A stretch of 64,000 bases of DNA from Sphaerisporangium perillae (GTDB lineage: Bacteria > Actinomycetota > Actinomycetes > Streptosporangiales > Streptosporangiaceae): positions 124,001 through 188,000 of the forward strand of contig NZ_JALLPO010000004.1 in the NCBI RefSeq assembly GCF_023276435.1, given 5' to 3'. This document shows positions 3,846-49,950 of this stretch, in pieces. The notes beneath the pieces are model-generated. The model saw only the letters and a program-made list of their open reading frames with translations. It was not told the DNA's origin and searched no databases. How positions within the stretch are numbered: the stretch's first letter is position 1; every line of letters starts with the position of its first letter. The position numbers and the translations under genes were made by a program.

Positions 3846-4035
3846 ACTCCGGATCGTCCCCGCAGACCTGGACATCCGGCTCACAGCAGCATGAAGTCCC
3901 CACGTCGGTCGGCTGAACGGAACGTCAGATCCCGCCGTCCGGCGGCCGTGGCCCCTGACCTGCGCGGTAGCGCCCACGCCCGCGGGACGCGTTGGATCTC
4001 CCGTTGACGGCTGTTGTCAGGACGGCCCGGAGGCT

Positions 4036-47335: not shown

Positions 47336-47989
47336 CTATTCGTTGGGGCGGACCAGGCCGGTCTCGTAGGCGAAGACAATGGCCTGGGCGCGGTCGCGCA
47401 GGCCGAGCTTCATGAGGATCCGGCCGACGTGGGTCTTGACGGTCTGCTCGGAGACCACGAGCCGGCCCGCGATCTCGCCGTTGGACAGGCCCTGGGCTAT
47501 CAAGGCCAGCACCTCGGTCTCGCGTTCGGTCAGGTCGTCCAGCCGCTTGACGGTGGGGGCGCGCGGACCGCCGAGGCGGGCGAACTCGGCGATGAGCCGC
47601 TTGGTGACCGAGGGGGCCAGCAGGGCCTCCCCGGACGCGACGATCCTGACGGCCTCGACGAGCTGCTGGGCGGAGGCGTCCTTGAGCAGGAAGCCGCTCG
47701 CCCCCGCTCGCAGCGCCTCGTAGACGTAGTCGTCGAGGTCGAAGGTGGTCAGGATGAGGATCTTCGTGAGCGTGCAGGCGAGGATCCGGCGGGTCGCCTC
47801 CAGCCCGTCCATCACCGGCATCCGGACATCCATCAGCACCACGTCCGGCTCGAGCTCGGCGGCCCTGGCGACCGCCTCCAGGCCGTTGACGGCCTCGCCG
47901 ACGACCTCGATGTCGGGTTGCGTGCCGAGGAAGGTGGTGAAGCCGGTGCGGACCATGCCTTGGTCGTCGGCGATCAGGACCCGGATCAC
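47336..47989 (-). CDS. NarL/LuxR-type response regulator (module B)
   Basis: 217 residues. Receiver domain with D8/D9, phospho-acceptor D54 ([13 protein letters not shown]), Thr in ILTTFDLDD and Lys in FLLKDAS; LuxR DNA-binding domain [23 protein letters not shown]. It overlaps the kinase gene by ATGA. The hydrolase gene begins 172 bp downstream on the same strand, so read-through is possible but an own promoter is likely. Confidence 0.93.
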
Positions 47990-49347
47990 TCGTCCTCCAC
48001 GATGGGCAGGGTCGCGGTGACGGCGAAGCCGCCGCCGGGGGTCGGCGCGGCCTCCAGGGTGCCGCCCAGCAGGATGGCCCGCTCCCGCATGCCGATGATC
48101 CCCTGACCGCCGCCGGAAGGAGGCGGGGTACGCTCCTGGCGGTCGCGCGGGGGCCGTCCGGTGAGGTCAGGGCCTGTGCCGGGGGAGGCCGGCCTGCGCC
48201 CGGGACCGCTGGTCACCTGAAGCCGCAGCTCTGTGGTCGTGCGGACGATCTCGATGCGCACGGACGACCCCGGCGCGTGCCGCATGGCGTTGCTCAGCGA
48301 CTCCTGCAGGATCCGGTACGCGGACAGGCCCACCGCCGGGGGGAGCTCCAGCGAGCCGGTGACGTCCACCGTGACCGCGAGCCCGCCGGAACGGGCGTTC
48401 CCGGTCAGGTCGTCGAGCCGGCCGAGCCCCGGCTGCGGCGCGGTCTCGCGGCGGCCGTCCTCGCCGCGCAGTGCCCCGAGCACCTGGCGCATCTCCGCCA
48501 GGGCCGCGAGCGACAGGACGCGGATCTCGGCGAGCCCGGCCTCCAGCCGCACGGGGTCGCCGGTGGCCCGCAGCGGCACGGCCTCCGCCTGGATCGCGAT
48601 CACCGACATGTGGTGGGCCACGATGTCGTGCAACTCGCGGGCGATGCGGGCGCGCTCCTCCAGTACTGACCTGGCGGCCCGCTGCTCCTCGCCCCGCTGC
48701 CGCTCTTCGGCCAGCCGGTTGGTCGCCCGCCTGCGCGCCCGCACGTTGTAGCCGAAGAGCAGGGCGACGGTCACCATGGTGGAGGCCAGGAACATCGAGT
48801 TGGGGTGGATGATCCACGAGCCCACGACGGACACGATCCACACGCCGAGCGTGACCTCCCCACCGGCGCGGACGGCCACGGAGTAGGCACAGAGCAGGTA
48901 GCAGATCGTCTCGCCGGCGTTGTAGGGGAGTACCTCGCCCGCCGGAACGGATGCTTCCACGCCGAGCACGTCGAGGTTGGCGGCGCCGAGGATCACCGTC
49001 GCGGCGGTGATCCGCCACGCCGCGACCGGCCAGCGGTCGCGCAGCGCGAGCGGCACGGAGAAACCGGCGGCCAGGAGATACATGATCGGTCCGTGGCTGC
49101 CGGGCTCGGGCAGGGTCGCCGCTCCCTGCATCACGGATATGCCGCTGGCGTAGAGGATGTAGGCGAGTACGAAGTCGCCCACGACGACGAGATCGACGGT
49201 GGCGAAGGGAAGCGGGCGCAGAGCGAGGGGCAGACGGAGCCGCAGCCGCGGTGACCGGGGGGTCGCCGGCTCGGCGGTGCCGGTCACCAGCGCCGAGACC
49301 AGCGGCCGCACCGGCCGCACCAGACTGGCCCAGGCACGGGAGCTCAT
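47986..49347 (-). CDS. Sensor histidine kinase, HisKA_3 type (module B)
   Basis: 453 residues from an ATG behind AAGGAG. Membrane segments run through about residues 40-190 with short loops. The phospho-acceptor box is [20 protein letters not shown] with H240; the ATP-binding domain has [11 protein letters not shown] and [18 protein letters not shown] Gly/Pro/Arg-rich insertion (about 390-420) lies before the G-box. The gene start abuts an IS200/IS605-like relic that begins about ten bases upstream of its ribosome site, so the native promoter may have been displaced. Confidence 0.92.
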
Positions 49348-49357
49348 CGAATCTCCT

Positions 49358-49570
49358 TAAGCGTGGAGACCTCCGCCTTCAGGCGGGGAGGTAACGCGGC
49401 ACGGGGGTGGAACGGTGTCGTCGCACGGTGTGGAACGGTGTCGGATGGTGTGGAGTCGAATCGGTGGACCTCAAAGAGAGAGTCCTCTCTGGCGGGCGAC
49501 CGGCGGTGAAGCAGGAAACCTGACCCGCGAGGGTCGGGATCCCCCTCGTTCACGAGGGGGAGGAGGTCAA
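49358..49570. mobile_element. IS200/IS605-type relic without transposase (PATE-like)
   Basis: Left side: a subterminal hairpin, arms ACCTCCGCC (49369-49377) and GGCGGGGAGGT (49382-49392), loop TTCA, with a small bulge. Right side: GAAGCAGGAAACC, hairpin GACCC-GCGA-GGGTC (49522-49535), then a 9-bp hairpin (49540-49561, loop TTCA), ending AGGAGGTCAA at 49570. This right end resembles the omega-RNA/right-end sequences of actinobacterial tnpB elements, where the guide begins after the final TCAA. No tnpA or tnpB remains. Short GGTGTGGAACGGTGTCG-type repeats fill the interior. The identification is by pattern memory. Confidence 0.6.
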
Positions 49571-49749
49571 CTGGCCAAGGTTACGAGCGCTCTGCGAGCG
49601 TGACGTCGTACCTAGGGAGGATCTTCCGCCGTCACCCCAGAGAGCCAGTGCACCGATCACGAACGCTCGCCGGGTCCCGCCGCACGATGGCGCCGGGTCC
49701 GCCGCACCCCTTCCCGCCGCCCCGGCGCCAAGTACCCGAGCACCACACC

Positions 49750-49950
49750 GCGGGAAGGGGGCACTCGTGCGGGGAGGGAAGTTGCCCGGCGGCGGAGAGG
49801 GTTCCCGGGCGGGTGGGGGTTCCCGGACGGAGAGGGGTTCTCGGGGGGTCTCGGGCGGAGAGTGAGCTGCCTGTGGGAGCGGAGAGGTGCCGGGACGGGG
49901 AGGGGAAGCGGCCGGGATGGAGGGGGGCGGAGGGGTGCTGGGGGGTGAGG
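49750..49950 (+). repeat. G-rich purine tract in the gene-free region upstream of lon
   Basis: The gene-free interval 49571-50017 is dominated by imperfect repeats of CGGAGAGGGGTTCTCGGG type and runs of four to six G, most densely at 49922-49948. Several four-tract combinations could form a G-quadruplex. No coding frame here has normal codon bias, and apart from the HAIR site I see no other element. Confidence 0.5.

Follow-up and report, generated by a model that had tools for sequence, protein, structure and literature searches.

An apparently internally deleted IS200/IS605-type element at the start codon of a histidine kinase gene in Sphaerisporangium perillae, with a putative ribosome-binding site in its tip

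IStrons, in which an IS605 element is joined to a group I intron, act by RNA splicing. IS608 of Helicobacter pylori inserts 3′ of TTAC and has TCAA as its right site, with GAAT and AAAG as the right and left guides, as given in the available part of its description (PMC5934647). The TnpB of ISDra2 uses a right-end RNA (reRNA) of about 150 nt, according to the portion of that report at hand (PMC8612924), and palindrome-associated transposable elements (PATEs) are characterized, in an excerpted account, as short elements with near-terminal palindromes, no terminal inverted repeats and no target duplication that are too short for a transposase (PMC3119063). Here we describe an element at positions 49348-49570 of a 64,000-nt stretch of Sphaerisporangium perillae DNA (contig NZ_JALLPO010000004.1, positions 124,001 to 188,000 of the forward strand; this whole stretch is called the window, and coordinates refer to it), which directly abuts the start codon of a histidine kinase gene. 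It is very probably an internally deleted IS200/IS605-type element that inserted 3′ of TCAT and thereby docked at a start codon, the gene presumably trading its leader and ribosome site for those of the element, in a manner that keeps the stop codon of an overlapping upstream gene. The element itself belongs to the known IS200/IS605 kind, while start-codon docking with a carried ribosome site appears to be new; in the open-licence literature searched we found no description of start-codon docking by such elements.

Alignment of the copies in the S. perillae genome set the limits of the element, which is 223 bp long and lies left to right on the plus strand, with TCAT followed directly by CGAATCTCC on the left and with AGGAGGTCAA closing the right end. 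The original prediction, a transposase-free IS200/IS605 relic at 49358-49570, had placed the right edge correctly and the left edge 10 bp too far to the right, so that the ribosome-site-like sequence of the kinase gene, which lies in the omitted 10-base tip, was hidden from it. The two TTCA-looped hairpins and the right end that it described are both present in the sequence. The left subterminal hairpin (49369-49392, plus strand, loop at 49378-49381) has the core CCGCC-TTCA-GGCGG (49373-49386) and is weak when taken alone, since 22 of 300 shuffles of 49359-49400 folded equally well or better, and the right subterminal hairpin (49541-49560, plus strand, loop at 49549-49552), CCCCCTCG-TTCA-CGAGGGGG, was equalled or bettered by 1 of 300 base shuffles of 49520-49570 when folded as single-stranded DNA. 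Sequence, alignment and folding revealed no terminal inverted repeats at the element ends, the hairpins being subterminal at both. Given the weakness of the left hairpin, it is repetition in its own genome that sets the element above chance: the element stretch has 49 matches there, most of which span a single half, either the left (up to 49466) or the right (49467 onwards). Because most copies match 49344-49466 or 49467-49570 separately, the window copy looks, by this comparison, like an internal deletion derivative with its junction at 49466/49467. The left part holds short direct repeats of the GGTGTGGAACGGTGTCG type (49404-49454, plus strand), and the right part (49467-49570, plus strand) comprises 104 bp.

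The target was measured cleanly by a pattern scan in which it was left free, and which yielded 31 loci from Streptosporangium, Nonomuraea, Microtetraspora and Spongiactinospora; CAT preceded the left end at 31 of 31 and TCAT at 30 of 31. The last three genera belong to the Streptosporangiaceae, as does Streptosporangium. A wider set retained 120 left ends, of which 116 follow TCAT and 4 follow CCAT, proportions that arise partly by construction, given that the queries began with TCAT and a CAT was sought within -6 to +7. Sixteen of 136 unique hits lacked CAT and were dropped, many of them being, by eye, right-end or internal hairpins or truncated ends; among them L179 and L189 look like left ends after TCAC, and L140 has a left-end-like tip without CAT. 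An earlier set of 25 left ends had been collected with a pattern that required CAT, and hence is no evidence on the target. Empty sites were found at two loci. At aspS, where a match was obtained in 8 of 10 other genomes, the eight relatives read ...AAGGAGA...CTGACC.. followed by ATGATCCG, and the element of this genome sits exactly at that join; at gcl, four relatives show the exact site without the element. The scans and these exact empty sites together establish a fixed short target, insertion 3′ of TCAT and no target duplication.

The family has in common with IS608 that it inserts 3′ of a fixed tetranucleotide, which stays in the left flank, that its hairpins are subterminal and that its right cleavage site is of the TCAA type. 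For copies with both ends, 53 of the 120 left ends were excluded as being without an accepted right end, and 67 remained; GTCAA is present in 62 of these, the window copy included, and GAAT, the IS608 right guide, stands before the right hairpin in 43, the window copy having GGAT. The family differs from IS608 in its target (TCAT rather than TTAC) and at the left-guide position (GANA in 91 of 120 left ends, as against AAAG), and neither start-codon docking nor a Shine-Dalgarno (SD) sequence in the tip is described for IS608 in the part of its account available (PMC5934647). With PATEs and miniature inverted-repeat transposable elements (MITEs), the window element shares its short length, palindromes near the ends, lack of a transposase gene and presence in several copies; landing at start codons or carriage of a ribosome site is not described for PATEs in the excerpt cited above (PMC3119063).

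TCAT is ATGA on the opposite strand, and insertion 3′ of it would therefore leave the ATG and put the left tip of the element directly before the gene. At the window locus the target (49344-49347), defined by the copy alignment and the target-free scan, reads on the minus strand as the start codon of the kinase gene plus one base; this gene (47986-49347, minus strand) encodes a protein with HisKA_3 and HATPase_c domains (Pfam). Read in the direction of the gene, the left tip is AAGGAGATTCG followed by ATG, and before the kinase it is AAGGAG-ATTCG-ATG, which places an SD-like AAGGAG (49353-49358, minus strand) at good spacing, 5 nt before the start codon. The element had been thought to lie upstream of the kinase ribosome site, whereas its own tip contains the SD-like site. 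In four relatives the kinase locus has no element, and TANNNT stands 6 nt before the start codon, which is GTG in three of them (a fifth relative, L110, was omitted because its start region could not be aligned). A corresponding -10-like box, TAACCT (49578-49583, minus strand), is recognized from the alignment of the relatives; it now lies beyond the element and falls 7 nt before the kinase ATG when the window flanks are joined. Given the position of the TANNNT box in the four relatives, the native kinase gene looks leaderless, and the sequence fits an element that parted its start codon from its putative -10 box. Placed between the two, the element would make the kinase mRNA SD-led with a leader of about 220 nt, ribosomes would use the SD of the element, and the native promoter would still drive the gene. 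That the stretch is instead an ordinary leader conserved in front of the kinase gene, and not mobile, would suit its leader position, but this reading is refuted by the 49 genome matches and by the absence of the insert in the four alignable relatives, and we give it practically no weight. Within the left tip, TCTCC and GGAGA (49353-49367) form a short inverted repeat which, in the predicted mRNA structure, could partly mask the SD. The kinase and response-regulator genes share a 4-bp overlap (47986-47989), likewise an ATGA-type junction.

The element had also been proposed to supply the promoter of the kinase operon. Mobile-element ends often bring promoters on insertion, and this one stands directly before the gene; against this, a sigma-70-type scan, with other promoter types outside its reach, found no promoter-like or terminator-like pattern in 49300-49750, and the -10-like box, whose position is common to the four orthologues, lies outside the element. 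For these two reasons the element probably supplies a leader and ribosome site and not a promoter, and we regard the promoter proposal as improbable.

We then compared the sites occupied by element copies with other TCATs at the same loci, using a codon score of our own that was trained on 160 long open reading frames and applied alike to joined-flank element sites and to the background. The results showed that 38 of the 67 two-ended copies occupy start-like sites, as against 285 of 2,740 background TCATs (odds ratio 11.3, P = 1e-19), and that 4 of 66 copies sit at gene-breaking sites, as against 1,561 of 2,713 background TCATs (L064 was dropped from the 66-copy test for its short flank). L079, which has two left ends with one common right end, and L014, counted as a 3-kb copy that encloses a second, truncated left end, were both scored as noncoding. 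When non-disrupting sites alone were considered, the ratio of start to noncoding sites was 37:25 for the copies and 170:871 for the background (odds ratio 7.6), and placing 111 ambiguous background sites among the starts gave an odds ratio of 4.6 (P = 1.5e-8). After right ends with an E-value above 0.01 were dropped, a hand count gave 31 start, 22 noncoding and 3 gene-breaking sites. Nineteen docked genes, picked as real-looking from 72 left ends with downstream coding sequence, were put through Pfam, and all 19 gave matches; their products include an aspartyl-tRNA synthetase type enzyme, a glyoxylate-carboligase-like thiamine pyrophosphate (TPP) enzyme, an isopentenyl pyrophosphate (IPP) transferase and a nucleotidyl transferase. 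By these sequence comparisons, relatives of the element sit at start codons far above chance, with the flanking genes apparently intact. Docking of this kind goes beyond what the original prediction had envisaged.

In many subfamilies the tip has an SD, AAGGAG or GGAGG-like, at good spacing, and a gene at which such an element docked would swap its own leader for that of the element. Among type I copies that had not been selected by their tips, all 30 start copies carry the SD, as do 15 of the 20 others (P = 0.007); within the S. perillae genome the corresponding figures are 17 of 17 and 6 of 10 (P = 0.012). Eight of 17 distinct tips carry an SD, where shuffling gave a mean of 2.1 and reached 8 in 1 of 2,000 runs. 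The two orthologues L165 and L207 agree at each of the first 22 bp, and the following 98 contain 18 differences (P = 0.04). Of five orthologous pairs this is the only one free of tip-based choice (L205/L206, for instance, are the L069/L074 contigs of the exact-tip scan), and the pooled P = 0.006, which includes tip-chosen pairs, was not relied on. The right tip, AGGAGGTCAA (49561-49570, plus strand), bears on the stop codon of the upstream gene. Its TCA plus one base is an opposite-strand TGA in register, so that a gene ending at an ATGA overlap keeps its stop. Fifteen of the 38 start-like sites are ATGA stop/start overlaps, and a native SD-like motif is present at 21; at all 15 overlaps the upstream gene retains a TGA stop, in 14 of them with the same last residue. 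In the gene upstream of aspS, which from its end we take to be hisS, the last codon changes from ACA to ACT, threonine in both cases.

Given that PATEs are an already described class in the accessible portions of two reports (PMC3119063, PMC7290912), the window element might be an unremarkable PATE/MITE relic whose target is fixed as TCAT, with docking due to survivorship and the SD-like tip a coincidence of the left-end linker. The rarity of gene-breaking copies relative to background does point to strong loss of harmful insertions, and subfamilies that lack an SD dock as well. The start sites, however, are still over-represented among harmless TCATs under either count of the ambiguous sites, and both the excess of SDs in type I start copies and among distinct tips and the identity of the L165/L207 tips speak against a coincidental SD; we therefore consider a plain relic unlikely, though it deserves a hearing, and continue to favor docking with a carried ribosome site. 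Several observations weigh against the latter. SD-less tips dock too (7 start, 7 noncoding), with an odds ratio against background of 5.1 (P = 0.004), or 3.1 (P = 0.053) when ambiguous sites are taken as starts; across all left ends the link between SD and start is weak (63 of 99 versus 9 of 21, P = 0.09); and the sequence around 25 of 66 copies was scored as noncoding. For the kinase SD, folding predicts a mean probability of 0.35 of being unpaired (0.30-0.59 in five other copies), the enrichment figures rest on a home-made coding score and are uncorrected for shared ancestry, and the only traces of a Y1 TnpA in the S. perillae genome are two fragments at contig edges, neither of which adjoins any of the 49 matches. 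The docking of SD-less subfamilies indicates that docking is independent of the SD; it looks as if docking follows from the TCAT target together with survival, and as if the SD refines it in some subfamilies. The enrichment at start sites would come from the loss of damaging insertions, perhaps combined with a bias in the choice of target. Four copies of subfamilies III and IV (L175, L176, L180 and L193) have tips without an SD and yet stand at start codons.

Fuller copies with the same ends were found in the genome, as the original prediction had anticipated, and bear out an IS200/IS605-type element that lacks its transposase. L015 and L019 hold a 419-codon open frame between these ends, and the frame of L015 matches OrfB_IS605, Cas12f1-like_TNB and HTH_OrfB_IS605 (Pfam), which identifies it as tnpB. 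These copies, of about 1.2-1.4 kb, resemble the tnpB-bearing IS605/IS1341 type modelled by ISDra2; the window copy differs in having lost tnpB and the 5′ part of a likely guide-RNA scaffold. The 223-bp element is too short for a Y1 (HUH) TnpA and contains none, and such a TnpA would have moved it in trans. A link to L135, one of the two Y1 tnpA fragments of this genome, was rejected, its flanking sequence being different (the other fragment, L136, was left out of this comparison). In a relative, L241 carries a Y1 TnpA and a TnpB (Pfam) between ends of the same plan, after CCAT, and is docked where a pterin-4a-carbinolamine dehydratase gene begins. A family-level search found matches in 90 of 297 genomes, with at most three candidates scored per genome, and a class-level search in 12 of 394, namely eleven members of the same family and a single weak match outside it. 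By size, the 67 two-ended copies comprise 37 of 1.2-1.41 kb, 8 of 301-1,100 bp, 12 of 54-300 bp, 9 of 53 bp and 1 longer. The 53-bp copies (L039, L044, L047, L054, L055, L064, L068, L071 and L079) consist of an SD tip, a single hairpin and a right tip; five of the nine are start-like. The right-end scores of the 53-bp copies are weak (E-values 0.005-0.73), and these copies may have moved as such or have been made by recombination between two hairpins.

We lean, by a little, towards a broader reading in which a lineage of IS200/IS605-type elements in the Streptosporangiaceae evolved a translation-compatible landing. Through TCAT read as ATGA, an SD in the left tip and an in-register stop in the right tip, such elements would insert between coupled genes, even hisS and aspS, leave both proteins intact and bring their own ribosome site, and the 53-bp copies would be mobile ribosome-binding-site cassettes. 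Like IStrons, they would make insertion less costly for the host gene; IStrons do so by splicing, whereas these elements would do so by fitting the start codon, the stop codon and the ribosome site. If this is true, a transposon can make insertion nearly harmless without splicing or avoidance of genes, its target and both ends fitting the grammar of gene starts and stops, and insertions would furnish existing genes, a tRNA-synthetase gene included, with new leaders and ribosome sites. A leaderless gene could in this way become an SD-led one.

The right part of the window copy follows the tnpB 3′ end in fuller copies, and it had been suggested to be an omega-RNA 3′ scaffold that could still yield an RNA with a guide taken from the flanking CTGGCCAAGG. 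It resembles the Rfam family HgcC below the gathering score, as do L015 and L021 and L027, not L019 or L241 (the resemblance, counted over loci tested, holds in 3 of 5). The scaffold is probably truncated: the 3′ end of tnpB seen in fuller copies is missing, and a complete TnpB guide-RNA scaffold was not found. The HgcC-like signal and the tnpB copies elsewhere in the genome favor a guide RNA. Only 104 bp of right part are left, without the tnpB 3′ end, as against an ISDra2 reRNA of about 150 nt in the portion of the report cited above (PMC8612924), which makes a working guide RNA from the window copy unlikely on sequence grounds, and we rate this possibility as very low. Taken as a whole, the observation behind the original prediction is confirmed and its interpretation is partly supported. 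Neither of the outcomes named as refuting it occurred, since the same ends flank tnpB copies and the sequence is absent from this locus in the four alignable relatives. Elsewhere in this genome, four copies of 274-279 bp (L021, L022, L027 and L038) have a similar interior and apparently represent a second miniature line that multiplied. In L035, near position 3900, long runs of G and C lie just within the left end and are perhaps an assembly artefact.
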